From assembly GCA_009843815.1 (NCBI GenBank), contig VYCS01000002.1, forward strand, positions 36,037 through 89,254: a stretch of 53,218 bases of DNA. The letters are read 5' to 3'. Of this stretch, positions 45,480-51,128 are shown in pieces. The stretch comes from Cenarchaeum sp. SB0675_bin_21. Lineage in GTDB: Archaea > Thermoproteota > Nitrososphaeria > Nitrososphaerales > Nitrosopumilaceae. Positions within the stretch are counted from its first letter, which is position 1. Each line of letters opens with the position of its first letter. Position numbers and translations under genes: made by a program. A model generated the notes under the pieces. That model was given only the letters and a program-made list of their open reading frames with translations, ran no database searches and was not told where the DNA came from.

Positions 45480-45840
45480 CTATCTTTTTAAACATGTAAA
45501 CCGTACTGTACGCTAATGGTACTATGCACATACACATTCGGCGTTATATTCCGTAAAGGGTTCAAGAAGGAGATGTTGGCCAGACAGGCCAGCATGGACA
45601 GGTACGTGTATAACAAACTAGTGGAAACCTTCAAGGAAGAATATCGTAGAACAGGTAGAGTAAATGCGACGCAGGGACCCTGAGAAACGTCAAGCACAGA
45701 CCGGGGAACGAGATGCTCTATGCACCGTCGTCCTCTGGCGTGACGTGTGATGTATTGTGGATGCGGGAACCCCCGTGCTTGCAGTAGGAACCGGATATGA
45801 GTTGGGCTGCCTTCCCAGCCCCTGATGGAGTAGTGTTATG
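45480..45840 (+). mobile_element. Internally deleted IS605-type remnant
   Basis: It contains a TnpB-like N-terminal peptide (45516-45683) followed within ~100 bp by sequence resembling a tnpB 3' end and right end (frame reading ...VLWMREPPCLQ then stop), with a hairpin gggctg-ccttcc-cagccc near 45813-45830. The whole central tnpB (RuvC motifs, zinc finger) is missing. The layout, two transposon ends with the middle lost, is that of a small non-autonomous derivative. Boundaries are approximate. Confidence 0.5.
45516..45683 (+). pseudogene. TnpB N-terminal fragment
   Basis: 55 codons: MVLCTYTFGVIFRKGFKKEM, then MDRYVYNKLVETFKEEYRRTGR, ending at a TGA. This matches the TnpB/OrfB N-terminal pattern (ykfrlyP.....l......R.vyN..l......y..tg). 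No catalytic part follows, so it is not functional as a nuclease. Confidence 0.6.
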
Positions 45841-46782
45841 TGGACGGGGTTGCCGTAGTTTCTCTAGTACCAAATCATGTATATTATGAATATCTGCATG
45901 CGTGTAGCCAAATTGTTCTGCATTATCTTCTTGCTCAAAGTGACCCGATATGGGTATGAATATACCTGGCGTGCCGTATGAGGTGGCTTCATCCGTTGTG
46001 GATCGGCCAGCCAGAGACACTACTACATCTGCAGCATATATCATCTGGTGTAGATTGGTAGTTGAATCTCCCAAGATGGGACCTCCTACAAATATTGTAT
46101 CGGCTACATCTGTAATATCTGCTGCAACGGGTCTCATGGCATCCAGAAGAAACTTGCCCGCCTCTGTACCGCCCACAGTGACCAAGACCGTCTTTCTACG
46201 CATATTGTACTTTTGCCGTAGGTACTCTCTAGGGTGGTGTATCTGCCTCACTATTGGACCCACATTGTGGATGTTTTTATGATCAGATGTAATATTTGGT
46301 GTTATTACAGCGTCGCATTCGAGTATCATATCTGTCATTTTGTGATTTAGTCTTCTCTCCACCATGCCGGATATGCCTTTTGTAAAGCGGCTCTGTAGTA
46401 CGTCGGTGATCAACACTTTACATCCTGTGTACATGGCCAGCGCTGCAAAGTCTTCATCTGATACTATCATCTTGGGATTGTATCGTTTGATCAAATCCAA
46501 GGATATACGGCGACACCTATAGTGATATTTCATGTAGCGAATAAGCCATATGGTTTTGTGCCGCAGATGACCCGATACTATATCGAATTTAGGTGGCGTA
46601 TACACATCAAGAACTGTATGGCCACATTTTGATAAAAAACTGGCAGCAACACCCCCGCTTACAAATATCACATCCACATCCTTGCGCAGCTGCTCGGCTA
46701 TGGCCGAATCTCTACTGGCATGTCCCAATCCTATGGGACTGGTAAAGAATAGAATGGTTGTGTTATGTTTTGTACCCGCCAT
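45718..46782 (-). CDS. MurG-like glycosyltransferase (GT28 type) with transposon-derived C-terminus
   Basis: 354 residues from MAGTKHNTTILFFTSPIGLGH; 13 upstream open codons overlap the ribE promoter. The N-terminal Rossmann domain has GLGHASRDSAIAEQL and DEDFAALAMY. The C-terminal domain has VLVTVGGTEAGKFLLDAM, FVGGPILGD and DVVVSLAGRSTTDEATSYGTPGIFIPI, the nucleotide-sugar site. The last ~40 residues (TTPSGAGKAAQLISGSYCKH to the end) are read antisense through the right end of the IS605 remnant, so the native C-terminus has probably been replaced. It transfers an unknown sugar, perhaps to a lipid. Divergent from ribE. Confidence 0.85.
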   Translation of the reverse strand: MAGTKHNTTILFFTSPIGLGHASRDSAIAEQLRKDVDVIFVSGGVAASFLSKCGHTVLDVYTPPKFDIVSGHLRHKTIWLIRYMKYHYRCRRISLDLIKRYNPKMIVSDEDFAALAMYTGCKVLITDVLQSRFTKGISGMVERRLNHKMTDMILECDAVITPNITSDHKNIHNVGPIVRQIHHPREYLRQKYNMRRKTVLVTVGGTEAGKFLLDAMRPVAADITDVADTIFVGGPILGDSTTNLHQMIYAADVVVSLAGRSTTDEATSYGTPGIFIPISGHFEQEDNAEQFGYTHADIHNIHDLVLEKLRQPRPHNTTPSGAGKAAQLISGSYCKHGGSRIHNTSHVTPEDDGA

Positions 46783-46820
46783 GCACCATAGTATATAGAA
46801 GCCATATTGACTATTATACA

Positions 46821-47423
46821 ATGTTGTTCACTGGTATAATTCAAGGAATCGGAAGGGTGCAGAGCATATCGCCCAGCGACAGACGTAGTGTGTTATGTAT
46901 GGACATTGATCTGGGTGGTTGCGCAGAGGGTCTAGAGCAAGGCCACAGTGTGGCCATAAATGGTGTCTGTCTAACAGTTGTGGACATCCATGATACGCGT
47001 TGTACATTTGAGATGATACAAGAGACCGTGCAGACTACAGGGTTAAGATCGTTAAAAGCTGGCGACAGCGTCAATATAGAGCGAAGCCTTCGCGTGGGCG
47101 ATAAGATAGAGGGACATTTTGTGTTGGGACATGTGGATGGAACCGGTGTAATAGATGAGATTCAAGAACGCCCCGGCGAGGTCAGTATCAAGATTCGCGT
47201 ACCAGAAACACTATCAAAGTATATAGTCAAGAAAGGGTCCATAGCAATCGACGGTACAAGTTTGACCATTACGGATATACAAGACAATATGATACAGATA
47301 TCATTAATACCACATACCATGGAGGTCACAAACTTTGGTACGCGCCAAGCAGGAGACATCATCAATATAGAGACGGACATACTGGGCAAATACGTTCTAA
47401 AGGAAGATAATATACAAGTATAA
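46821..47423 (+). CDS. ribE: Riboflavin synthase, bacterial RibE type
   Basis: 200 residues from ATG 46821 (MLFTGIIQGIGRV), the family-typical start. Two lumazine-binding barrel repeats: ~1-90 (GHSVAINGVCLTVVDI) and ~97-190 (KKGSIAIDGTSLTITDI), with the GHFVLGHVDGTG segment between. It dismutates two lumazine molecules to riboflavin. Many euryarchaea use an unrelated archaeal enzyme, so this is the bacterial-type solution. First gene of the riboflavin cluster; its promoter is squeezed into the 38-bp gap to the divergent glycosyltransferase gene. Confidence 0.95.
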   Translation: MLFTGIIQGIGRVQSISPSDRRSVLCMDIDLGGCAEGLEQGHSVAINGVCLTVVDIHDTRCTFEMIQETVQTTGLRSLKAGDSVNIERSLRVGDKIEGHFVLGHVDGTGVIDEIQERPGEVSIKIRVPETLSKYIVKKGSIAIDGTSLTITDIQDNMIQISLIPHTMEVTNFGTRQAGDIINIETDILGKYVLKEDNIQV

Positions 47424-47479: not shown

Positions 47480-48145
47480 ATGCCCATCCAAGATGCCATA
47501 AATGATCTGCAGAATGGTCGCTTTGTCATGATACATGATGCAGGTGAGCGCGAGAATGAGTACGACATGGTGATAGCTGCGCAGTTCATCAAACCCGAGC
47601 ATATATCCAAGATGAGGGTTGATGCTGGAGGCCTACTATGCTTGGCCCTAGAACATAACTTTGCCATATCACTGGGACTAGAGTATATGCATCGCATACT
47701 TGAGGACTCTTCAATACCATCACAGATGATACTAGGACGGGCCAAGTATGGGGATCATCCCACATTCTCCATTGGAATAAATCACATAGATGCATACACA
47801 GGAATAACCGATATAGAGAGGGCGCACACCATACGCCAGATGTCTAGATTGTATGAAGCCGATGGTGATATGCGTTCAAAGTTTATACAGTCGTTTCAGA
47901 CACCTGGCCATGTACCTCTTCTGATAGCTGCTGATGGACTGCTTTATACACGACAGGGCCACACCGAGATGTCTGTATATCTGGCTGGTATGGCAGAACT
48001 ATTACCGATGGCAGCAATCTGCGAGATGATGGATTCGAAGACGCATATGGCGTTAAAGGAGGATGAGGCGCACAAGTTTGCCCAAAAAAATTCTATAAAG
48101 ATAGTCGAGTCGACTGAGTTGTTGGAGGAGCTCACAGTACAATGA
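47480..48145 (+). CDS. ribB: 3,4-Dihydroxy-2-butanone 4-phosphate synthase
   Basis: 221 residues. The acidic substrate loop reads DAGERENEYDMVIAA (~20-34), with Tyr in place of the Gly of the bacterial ENEGDL motif. The second site is RQGHTEMSVYLAGMA (~157-171), where bacterial GHTEAAVDL is altered. It makes the four-carbon unit of lumazine from ribulose 5-phosphate. No GTP cyclohydrolase II domain is fused. A TATA-like ctttataac lies ~30 nt upstream, so a second promoter is possible. ATGA overlap with ribH. Confidence 0.95.
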   Translation: MPIQDAINDLQNGRFVMIHDAGERENEYDMVIAAQFIKPEHISKMRVDAGGLLCLALEHNFAISLGLEYMHRILEDSSIPSQMILGRAKYGDHPTFSIGINHIDAYTGITDIERAHTIRQMSRLYEADGDMRSKFIQSFQTPGHVPLLIAADGLLYTRQGHTEMSVYLAGMAELLPMAAICEMMDSKTHMALKEDEAHKFAQKNSIKIVESTELLEELTVQ

Positions 48146-48558
48146 AGATTGCCATTGTGGTCTCTGAATTTAACTTGGAGATTACAAGTCGTATGTTAGA
48201 GGCTGCGCAGGATAGGGCGGCTGAGATTGGTCTAGATATTGTAAAAGTCTGCCATGTTCCTGGCGCCTACGATATTCCATATATGGTAAATGTGTTGTTT
48301 GGTGGAGGCCAGATAGACGGTATAGCCACACTGGGCGCAGTAATAAAAGGAAAGACAAAGCATGATGAGATAATATCACATGTTACAGCATCAACACTAC
48401 AGAGTCTGTCTATAAAGTATGACAAGCCAGTATCATTGGGGGTTACCGGGCCCGGTATGACCGAACGGCAAGCCTATGCCCGAATAAGACCGGTTGCTCG
48501 ACACGCCATAGAGTCTTTGGTATATCTACATAAGGAAGCGGCAAGGGTGAGATCATGA
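48142..48558 (+). CDS. ribH: 6,7-Dimethyl-8-ribityllumazine synthase
   Basis: 138 residues, typical archaeal length. Motifs: VVSEFNLEITSRML (~6-19), HVPGAYDIPYMV (~37-48), LGAVIKGKTKHDEI (catalytic His, ~65-78) and LGVTGPGMTERQAYAR. It condenses the butanone phosphate with the amino-ribitylamino-uracil to give lumazine, the RibE substrate. Coupled by 4-nt overlaps to ribB and to the GTP cyclohydrolase gene. Confidence 0.95.
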   Translation: MKIAIVVSEFNLEITSRMLEAAQDRAAEIGLDIVKVCHVPGAYDIPYMVNVLFGGGQIDGIATLGAVIKGKTKHDEIISHVTASTLQSLSIKYDKPVSLGVTGPGMTERQAYARIRPVARHAIESLVYLHKEAARVRS

Positions 48559-49277
48559 TGCAGGTTACAGTGGCCAACATACGCGGATACGGGCCTTGGA
48601 CTTTAACACTGGGCCATGACCGGGAACACCACCTACAGATGCTACAAGCTTCGCTGTATCGCAAGACACAGCAGTTATTCTCAGAGAAGGGAGCATTGGT
48701 CTTTCCCAACAGATATGATGAATATATCATAGCGTCCAGTGGCATGGATGCTGAGGAGCACTCTAATATTTCAAATATAATATCAAACGAATTTCAGGTG
48801 AAATTGGATATGTATGTTGGTCACGGAGATACACCACAAAAAGCAGAGCAGTCTGCCCACATGCATCGCTCAGTGGATACAGCCAAAAAACATTCAGATG
48901 ACATAGTAACTGTAATGCATATAGATGTGGACAACCTTACTGATAGAACACATAGTGTCTCTCCCTATGGCATAAGCCAGATTATGCTAAAGTTACATTT
49001 AGAGATGTCAGAGTATTTTTTGGAACGGGAGTCACTCTCATTTTTTATGGGTGGAGATAATTTTATGGTGTTAGGGTCAGACCAGGGAAGAGATGCCAGT
49101 CAGGGATTTTTAGATAAGATAAAGCAAGGGATGGGAATAAATCTAAACTGTGGGATTGGTGTAGCATCTACAGGCAGAGAGGCAGCCCGACGTGCAACAA
49201 AATCTCTTGATACAATAAGGGAGATTCGTGAATCAGGCGCAGAAGAGATACCGCGAATATATGAGGCAGATTGTTAA
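48555..49277 (+). CDS. arfA: Archaeal GTP cyclohydrolase III (ArfA)
   Basis: 240 residues. The archaeal GTP cyclohydrolase IIa/III family is marked by the start MQVTVANIRGYGPWTLTLG, VMHIDVDNLTDR (~122-133) and FFMGGDNFMVLG (~161-172, relative of the GGDEF fold). It opens the GTP imidazole ring to the formylamino-pyrimidine phosphate (FAPy), the first archaeal step to riboflavin and F420 chromophores. 4-nt overlap with ribH and 7-nt overlap with the amidohydrolase gene. Confidence 0.93.
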   Translation: MMQVTVANIRGYGPWTLTLGHDREHHLQMLQASLYRKTQQLFSEKGALVFPNRYDEYIIASSGMDAEEHSNISNIISNEFQVKLDMYVGHGDTPQKAEQSAHMHRSVDTAKKHSDDIVTVMHIDVDNLTDRTHSVSPYGISQIMLKLHLEMSEYFLERESLSFFMGGDNFMVLGSDQGRDASQGFLDKIKQGMGINLNCGIGVASTGREAARRATKSLDTIREIRESGAEEIPRIYEADC

Positions 49278-50443
49278 TACAGAATGTATCTGCCCTTTTA
49301 GGATTAGACGTAGAGTATAAAGAATCAGTAGACATACGTATGCAAAATGGCATATTCACAGATATAGGAGAGGGTTTGGATAGTATAGGCGAGAGCACAT
49401 ATGATGGCCAAGGGCTCTTGGCAGTGCCGGGTTTTGTAAACTGTCATACTCACATAGGTGACTCCATAGCAAAAGACATATCATTGGGTTTGGATGTAAA
49501 GGGGGGCGTACATCCAGTTTATGGTGTAAAATCCCGGGTATTAAACAGAACAGAACCCAAGCATTTAGTACAGTTTATGCAGAATACCTGTCTATCCATG
49601 TTGGCCGGTGGAACTACTACCTTTGTTGACTTTCGAGAAGGCGGAATCTCCGGAGTACATATGGCACAAAGCGCGTGTGATGTAACTTCCATAAAGGGGA
49701 TAATATTGGGTCGTACAAATAAATATCAAGATAAAAATCAGATTAAAAATAACATAATACCAAATAATATAAAAAATGATCTAAAAAACGTTATTGTTCA
49801 AGCAGATGGTCTAGGAGTTAGTGGTGCCAATGAGAACAGTGATGCAGTGTTAGAGTTGTACTCGGAGACCTCAAAGATTAGGGCAATTCATGCCGCCGAA
49901 ACTGCAGAGAGTGTACAGGACTCTTATGATATGACAGGTAAAGGTGAGGTGGAACGGGCCTTACTAATGAAACCTCATTTTTTGGTGCATATGGTGCATG
50001 CCAGTGATACCGAGTTAAATACTGTATCTGAGGCCCGCATAGGTGTGGTGGCATGTCCTAGGTCCAATGCAGTTCTCAGTGGTACGATTCCAGATATATC
50101 TAGAATGGTGAATATGGGTTGTATAGTAGCCTTGGGCACAGACAATATAATGGTAAATTCTCCAGACATGTTTCGAGAGATGGAGTTTGCATGGAAGACC
50201 TCCAATGGAAGACTGACTCCTCATGACACATTACGGATGGCAACGGTCAATGGAGGGCGTGTTTTAGGTATGAAATTGGGAGCTATATCTATGGGGTATA
50301 TGGCCGATCTTATATTATTTGAAAAACATCATATTAGCATGGAGCCCATGCATAATCCTTATGCGGCCTTGGTGCACAGGGCCTGTGCCGATACCATACG
50401 GGCTGTGGTTGTAGATGGTAGTGTTGTCCATGGACGTATGTAA
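49271..50443 (+). CDS. Amidohydrolase in the riboflavin operon (candidate missing step)
   Basis: 390 residues with the full metal site of the guanine/cytosine/SAH deaminase branch of the amidohydrolase superfamily: NCHTHIGDS (HxH, ~57-65), AIHAAETAE (~207-215), HMVHASDTEL (~239-248) and ALGTDNIMVNSPD (~292-304). The enclosing composite domain (GLLAVPGFVN; ADLILFE) is also present. It overlaps arfA by 7 nt and the reductase gene by 14 nt, so it is inside the operon. Archaeal riboflavin synthesis needs a deformylase and a pyrimidine 2-amino deaminase; this enzyme could supply either. It could instead act on an unrelated nucleoside such as SAH or MTA. Confidence 0.85.
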   Translation: MLIQNVSALLGLDVEYKESVDIRMQNGIFTDIGEGLDSIGESTYDGQGLLAVPGFVNCHTHIGDSIAKDISLGLDVKGGVHPVYGVKSRVLNRTEPKHLVQFMQNTCLSMLAGGTTTFVDFREGGISGVHMAQSACDVTSIKGIILGRTNKYQDKNQIKNNIIPNNIKNDLKNVIVQADGLGVSGANENSDAVLELYSETSKIRAIHAAETAESVQDSYDMTGKGEVERALLMKPHFLVHMVHASDTELNTVSEARIGVVACPRSNAVLSGTIPDISRMVNMGCIVALGTDNIMVNSPDMFREMEFAWKTSNGRLTPHDTLRMATVNGGRVLGMKLGAISMGYMADLILFEKHHISMEPMHNPYAALVHRACADTIRAVVVDGSVVHGRM

Positions 50444-51128
50444 GAGGCCGCGCATAATAATTAGCGCCGCAGTTACAATTGATGGTAGAATAGCCACCAA
50501 GGCTGGGGACTCAAAGATATCCTCAGATATAGATATGGTGCGTCTGCATAAACTACGCGCCAGTATAGATGCCATACTTGTCGGCCGAAATACAATGATG
50601 CATGATGACCCGTTACTGACTGTACGATATACAACAGGCAAGAATCCTATACGTATAATATTAGACCCGTGTGGTGAGATACCATCAAACTCACAGATTT
50701 TAACCACATCTAGTGCGGTCCCCACAATATTGGTATTAACAAATAATGCCAGTGTAAAAGATCAGAGACGATTGGCAGATTTTAATGTAAAAATAATACA
50801 CACTGGGACTGAGCGTATAAACCTAAAATGGTTGGTAACCGAATTATTTGAAAAATACAATATTAAAACAGTTTTAGTTGAGGGCGGAGGCAGGACCAAC
50901 TGGTCGTTCATAAAAGAGGATATATTCGACGAGATAATACTGACTGTATCGCCACATATAGCTGGAGATGGAATCAATCTCATACATGGGGATGGGTTTG
51001 CGCAGATACATGAGGGTCCATCTTTGCACTTAAAATCGGCGCAGACACAAGGTGATGAGATAGTTCTGCATTATACGCGACACACTACTCCACATAGTGA
51101 TGATGAATTAAATTGTCATAAAATCTGA
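50430..51128 (+). CDS. Diaminopyrimidinone-phosphate reductase (RibD C-terminal/ArfC type)
   Basis: 232 residues from ATG 50430 (MDVCKRPRIIISAAVTIDGRI). The DHFR-like RibD reductase fold shows ISAAVTIDGRIAT, RLHKLRASIDAILVGRNTMMHDDPLLTVR, NPIRIILD and VLVEGGGRTNWSFI. It reduces the ribosyl chain of the pyrimidine intermediate with NAD(P)H. The CDA-type deaminase domain of bacterial RibD is absent, so deamination must be done by another protein. The last 44 nt overlap the convergent aldehyde dehydrogenase gene. Confidence 0.93.
   Translation: MDVCKRPRIIISAAVTIDGRIATKAGDSKISSDIDMVRLHKLRASIDAILVGRNTMMHDDPLLTVRYTTGKNPIRIILDPCGEIPSNSQILTTSSAVPTILVLTNNASVKDQRRLADFNVKIIHTGTERINLKWLVTELFEKYNIKTVLVEGGGRTNWSFIKEDIFDEIILTVSPHIAGDGINLIHGDGFAQIHEGPSLHLKSAQTQGDEIVLHYTRHTTPHSDDELNCHKI

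Follow-up and report, generated by a model that had tools for sequence, protein, structure and literature searches.

A conserved amidohydrolase of the archaeal riboflavin operon as a likely C2 deaminase of the riboflavin/F420 pathway

Introduction

Which enzyme removes the 2-amino group from the common precursor of vitamin B2 and coenzyme F420 in archaea? We know of no archaeal enzyme proven to catalyze this C2 deamination, and the gap lies in a pathway needed by every archaeon that makes riboflavin or F420. The question is raised anew by a stretch of 53,218 nucleotides from the 1.61 Mb genome of Cenarchaeum sp. SB0675_bin_21 (the whole stretch is called the window here), in which an amidohydrolase gene, termed X, lies between the riboflavin genes arfA and arfC. 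An initial annotation of this DNA had suggested that the product of X is the missing deaminase or, alternatively, a replacement of the deformylase ArfB, and it had regarded the deaminase gap as unassigned. The latter holds insofar as no demonstration of activity was found, but a prediction for the gap was already made in 2017. A published table (PMC8305020, Table 6) credits Rodionova et al. 2017 (PMID 28073944) with predicting HVO_2483 and MJ0699, enters them after arfC and before the gap at the phosphatase, and gives candidates for two of three pathway gaps, the other being arfB. By elimination, the 2017 prediction for MJ0699/HVO_2483 is the deaminase. A biochemical test of this role for the MJ0699 family was not found in the open-access literature. 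The deaminase role of X is not a new idea, while the comparative support presented here is new and stronger.

Results and Discussion

Gene X and its operon

The window contains the same-strand gene order ribE-ribB-ribH-arfA-X-arfC, all on the forward strand. A bacterial-type riboflavin synthase is encoded by ribE (46821-47423; PF00677, NF006767 with 217.6 bits), followed by ribB (47480-48145; PF00926, TIGR00506), ribH for lumazine synthase (48142-48558; PF00885, TIGR00114) and arfA for GTP cyclohydrolase III (48555-49277; PF05165 at 6.4e-46, a relative of PDB 2qv6). Gene X (49271-50443) is intact and encodes 390 amino acids from a TTG start, which matches the ATG starts of relatives in the alignment and is likewise TTG in the congener L023. 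Downstream, arfC encodes a RibD C-terminal-type reductase (50430-51128; PF01872 at 6.2e-43, TIGR01508 with 169.8 bits). The overlaps given by the initial annotation were reproduced, with 7 nucleotides between X and arfA and 14 between X and arfC. The latter value applies to the arfC ATG at 50430, which is the start fitting the homologues; the longest open reading frame begins at 50415 and overlaps by 29 nucleotides. Long open frames in G161, G162 and G218 (G-numbers denote genomes and f-numbers families in our locus labels) were considered as X-arfC fusions and rejected as high-GC frame extensions; these genomes keep the usual order ribE-ribB-...-arfA-X-arfC.

Using profile searches, X was matched by PF01979 at 3.7e-44 and by NF005552/PRK07213 ("chlorohydrolase", the MJ0699 family) with 311.5 bits, exceeding the curated cut-off of 294. 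Only amidohydrolase models matched X; it gave no match to the N-terminal domain of TIGR00326 (the RibD deaminase of the CDA fold), to ArfB (NF033501) or to the creatininase model. The protein shares 34% identity with MJ0699 (E-value 2e-50). The M. jannaschii orthologue (G138, L161:9695-10837) sits two genes away from the one for the PDB 1FBN fibrillarin, which we take to be MJ0697, and is thereby identified as MJ0699.

Further observations were made around the operon. A gene for an MJ1255-type glycosyltransferase (45718-46821, reverse strand) is oriented divergently from it. Riboflavin synthase is of the bacterial type in the family of the window, versus the RibH-related archaeal type in clusters of f14, f16, f24 and f28. 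Some relatives (G060, G190, G191, G222, G243) carry a second ArfA copy outside the operon.

Active site, fold and phylogenetic position

The initial annotation had stated that all metal ligands of guanine/cytosine-type deaminases (HxH, H, H, D) are kept, and they were indeed located as H59xH61, H207, H240 and D291, joined by the glutamate E210 of an HxxE motif, a residue that this annotation had left unmentioned. All six residues are invariant in 36 of 36 aligned homologues. Their codons lie on the forward strand at 49445-49453 (HxH), 49889-49900 (H207-E210, metal ligand and proton-shuttle glutamate), 49988-49990 (strand-6 histidine H240) and 50141-50146 (strand-8 metal-ligand D291 with the adjoining N292). 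Together they make up the full set of catalytic residues known from the mononuclear base deaminases of the amidohydrolase superfamily. D64, K87 (49529-49531, forward), E123 (49637-49639, forward) and N292 are family-specific invariants, also seen in 36/36 where counted singly (K87, E123, D291-N292), and R264 and R370 are found in 33 of the 36 homologues.

The AF2 model of X (pLDDT 96) is a (beta/alpha)8 barrel. At the active-site face of this model, barrel strands lead into D64, E123 (after barrel strand 2, residues 115-122), R264 and D291/N292, and the helix that succeeds the first loop begins with K87. Foldseek matched the model to SAH/adenosine deaminases (1e-27 for adenosine deaminase 4gbd), triazine hydrolases, guanine deaminases and the isocytosine deaminase Vcz. 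A sequence search of the PDB yielded no solved structure of the X family. Comparing X with DadD (MJ1541) and the SAH/MTA deaminase TM0936, fold and all six catalytic residues were found in common. In a tree with only SAH/5'-deoxyadenosine-type deaminases as outgroup, X and MJ0699 formed their own clade on a 100/100 branch; D64, E123 and N292 are specific to the X family; and the position of TM0936 Glu84 is occupied by K87, with lysine in 36/36 X homologues versus glutamate in 11/11 DadD/SAH deaminases. Glu84 of TM0936 binds the ribose hydroxyls of SAH. A chemical precedent is offered by the isocytosine/8-oxoguanine deaminase group, which removes the 2-amino group of the 2-amino-4-pyrimidinone isocytosine (PMC6186785). 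Isocytosine is the ring of the substrate proposed for X, and by analogy the chemistry of the Vcz group would be the same deamination. Vcz (7ww2) shares the fold with X at about 18% identity; however, its group acts on free bases and not on a ribitylamino phosphate.

Co-occurrence with the pathway and absence of a RibD-type deaminase

Across a 68-genome panel drawn from the phylum, X was present in 27/27 ArfA-positive and in 3/41 ArfA-negative genomes (Fisher 6e-16, kinship ignored). Two families, f3 and f19, hold both states, and X tracks ArfA in both. ArfA-negative genomes showed weaker amidohydrolase matches in longer frames, mostly of more than 425 amino acids; the four entered in the tree all fell into the DadD/SAH clade. 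Exactly one X copy above cut-off was found in 14/14 named methanogen genomes and in 26/26 genomes around Methanocaldococcus.

Bacteria perform the equivalent reaction with the deaminase domain of RibD (N-terminal part of TIGR00326, cytidine-deaminase fold), which differs from X in its unrelated fold and unrelated zinc site. The claim that archaea lack this domain was borne out in our panel, since none of 80 genomes scored above the RibD cut-off. GTP cyclohydrolase II was likewise absent from 80/80 genomes searched. ArfC matched the reductase part of the RibD model, and the weak N-terminal RibD matches were stand-alone CDA proteins. One such frame in the genome of the window (L184:4942-5451) was considered as a hidden RibD deaminase and rejected, as it is ComEB/dCMP-deaminase-like with 103 bits versus 23 bits for the RibD model. 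On the same contig (C15, L184:1651-4935, reverse strand) a B-family DNA polymerase gene was noticed, with an apparent intein-like insertion ending ...HHFCGGIGNILLHN before TDSLF.

Linkage of X to arfA, arfC, cofG and cofH

X directly adjoins arfA and/or arfC in all of the 30 Thermoproteota loci first examined, with the arrangements arfA-X-arfC, ribB-ribC-ribH-arfA-X, arfC-X and X-arfC. For the Nitrosopumilaceae, the family to which the window belongs, 110 genomes with a completeness of at least 95% were surveyed. X was found in 110/110 (106 above cut-off) and arfA in 109, and both stood side by side in 109/109 genomes carrying them; in the 110th, X lies at a contig start. The G018 (f14) cluster, arfC-arfA-ribB-ribC-ribH-X plus a convergent creatininase gene, comprises every step of the archaeal route save the phosphatase.

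In G017 and G097 (families f13 and f30; L177:9744-14031, L178:9556-13772) X is kept in a cluster X-arfC-cofG-cofH, that is, alongside the FO synthase genes where RibH is missing. Profile searches recognized neither ArfA nor GTP cyclohydrolase II in these two genomes; RibH was not found in G017 and only as one short fragment of 30.6 bits with a stop in G097. In the third ArfA-negative genome with X, G091, the X-arfC pair is located where a contig ends. The substrate of CofH is 5-amino-6-ribitylaminouracil. Taken together with the X-arfC-cofG-cofH clusters, this places X upstream of that compound and not in the later riboflavin steps. Throughout the methanogens examined, M. jannaschii included, X is separated from the pathway genes, in contrast to its position inside the operon in the genome of the window, so the linkage evidence comes from the Thermoproteota only; for haloarchaea and Methanosarcina, control tallies took the place of this gene-placement survey. 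Co-occurrence and linkage alone cannot pick out the substrate of X within the pathway.

Proposed function and mechanism

From these data we infer that X is the deaminase of the shared riboflavin/F420 trunk and acts on the product of ArfC, a reading to which we assign a probability of roughly 0.85. The deaminase proposal of the initial annotation gains support from the co-occurrence, the persistent arfA/arfC linkage, the FO synthase linkage without ribH, the complete active site and the lack of a RibD-type deaminase, and its interpretation as a whole was partly supported. The orthologous MJ0699/HVO_2483 proteins, members of the same NF005552 family and of the same clade, have been proposed for the same pathway gap.

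As a metal-dependent (beta/alpha)8-barrel amidohydrolase, X would hydrolyze the exocyclic 2-amino group of 2,5-diamino-6-ribitylamino-4(3H)-pyrimidinone 5'-phosphate, a substituted isocytosine, to 5-amino-6-ribitylamino-2,4-pyrimidinedione 5'-phosphate and ammonia. In analogy to mononuclear deaminases, a divalent metal on H59, H61, H207 and D291 would activate water, and E210, H240 and D291 would shuttle protons while ammonia departs from C2. K87, E123, R264 and R370 are candidate contacts to the substrate or its phosphate. After dephosphorylation, the product would supply riboflavin via RibH and RibE, and coenzyme F420 via CofG and CofH. It is likely that the general archaeal C2 deaminase of this trunk is a TIM-barrel amidohydrolase and not a CDA-fold RibD domain, and that in some lineages devoid of ArfA and RibH it has been kept, in company with ArfC and FO synthase, solely to make F420, which implies another first enzyme there. 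If true, the same deamination has been solved by unrelated protein folds in bacteria and archaea. To this picture the ammonia-oxidizing archaea and several of their relatives add an operon-fixed gene, together with one cluster that covers nearly the whole pathway and another that is restricted to F420.

Alternative assignments

Adenosine/SAH deaminases are the best solved structural relatives of X, and searching the genome of the window with the X protein or the family model gave a single match, so that no DadD paralogue is apparent there. Both observations would fit a SAH, MTA, 5'-deoxyadenosine (DadD-type) or other purine deaminase that is merely located in the operon. The 100/100 separation of the clades and the invariant lysine in place of Glu84 argue against such an assignment, nearly all methanogen genomes surveyed possess a DadD-type protein in addition to X, and the tight linkage to arfA, arfC and cofGH across many families would be left unexplained; we regard it as very unlikely. 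A different point of action within the pathway, other than after ArfC on the ribityl phosphate, is favored by the occurrence of X ahead of arfC in some clusters, and pathway order is not fixable from sequence. Nevertheless, a review (PMC13028884, citing Graupner 2002) reports that in archaea reduction precedes deamination, and the conserved basic residues of X would suit a phosphorylated substrate. This renders another order highly improbable.

The remaining alternative, that X takes the role of ArfB and deformylates the formamidopyrimidine made by ArfA, draws on the position of X next to arfA and on the amide hydrolases known within the amidohydrolase superfamily. As the initial annotation had noted, the window cluster contains no creatininase-type ArfB; however, the same genome harbors a creatininase-family gene elsewhere (C25:6611-7237, 172 bits). 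Such a gene is present in 26/27 ArfA-positive panel genomes including that of the window, with no creatininase match in the ArfA-positive G113, and it adjoins arfA in f8 and f24 and X in f14. The deformylase step is accounted for by this distribution. The Nitrosopumilaceae creatininase is only a candidate ArfB, distant from the methanogen ArfB model as judged by its score (25.7 bits, cut-off 180, for the gene of the window genome). In M. jannaschii, MJ0699 is accompanied by a gene of the creatininase family that occupies the position of ArfB (MJ0116). ArfB (NF033501) and X are both metal-dependent hydrolases of the same pathway, but ArfB belongs to the creatininase family and catalyzes another reaction. 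Given this co-existence and the HxxE signature of base deaminases in X, replacement of ArfB by X is disfavored and appears extremely improbable, leaving deamination of the ArfC product as the preferred role. As a separate observation, the creatininase-type ArfB candidate of the window genome adjoins a gene for a PurU-like formyltetrahydrofolate deformylase (L183:6563-8132, reverse strand, contig C25).
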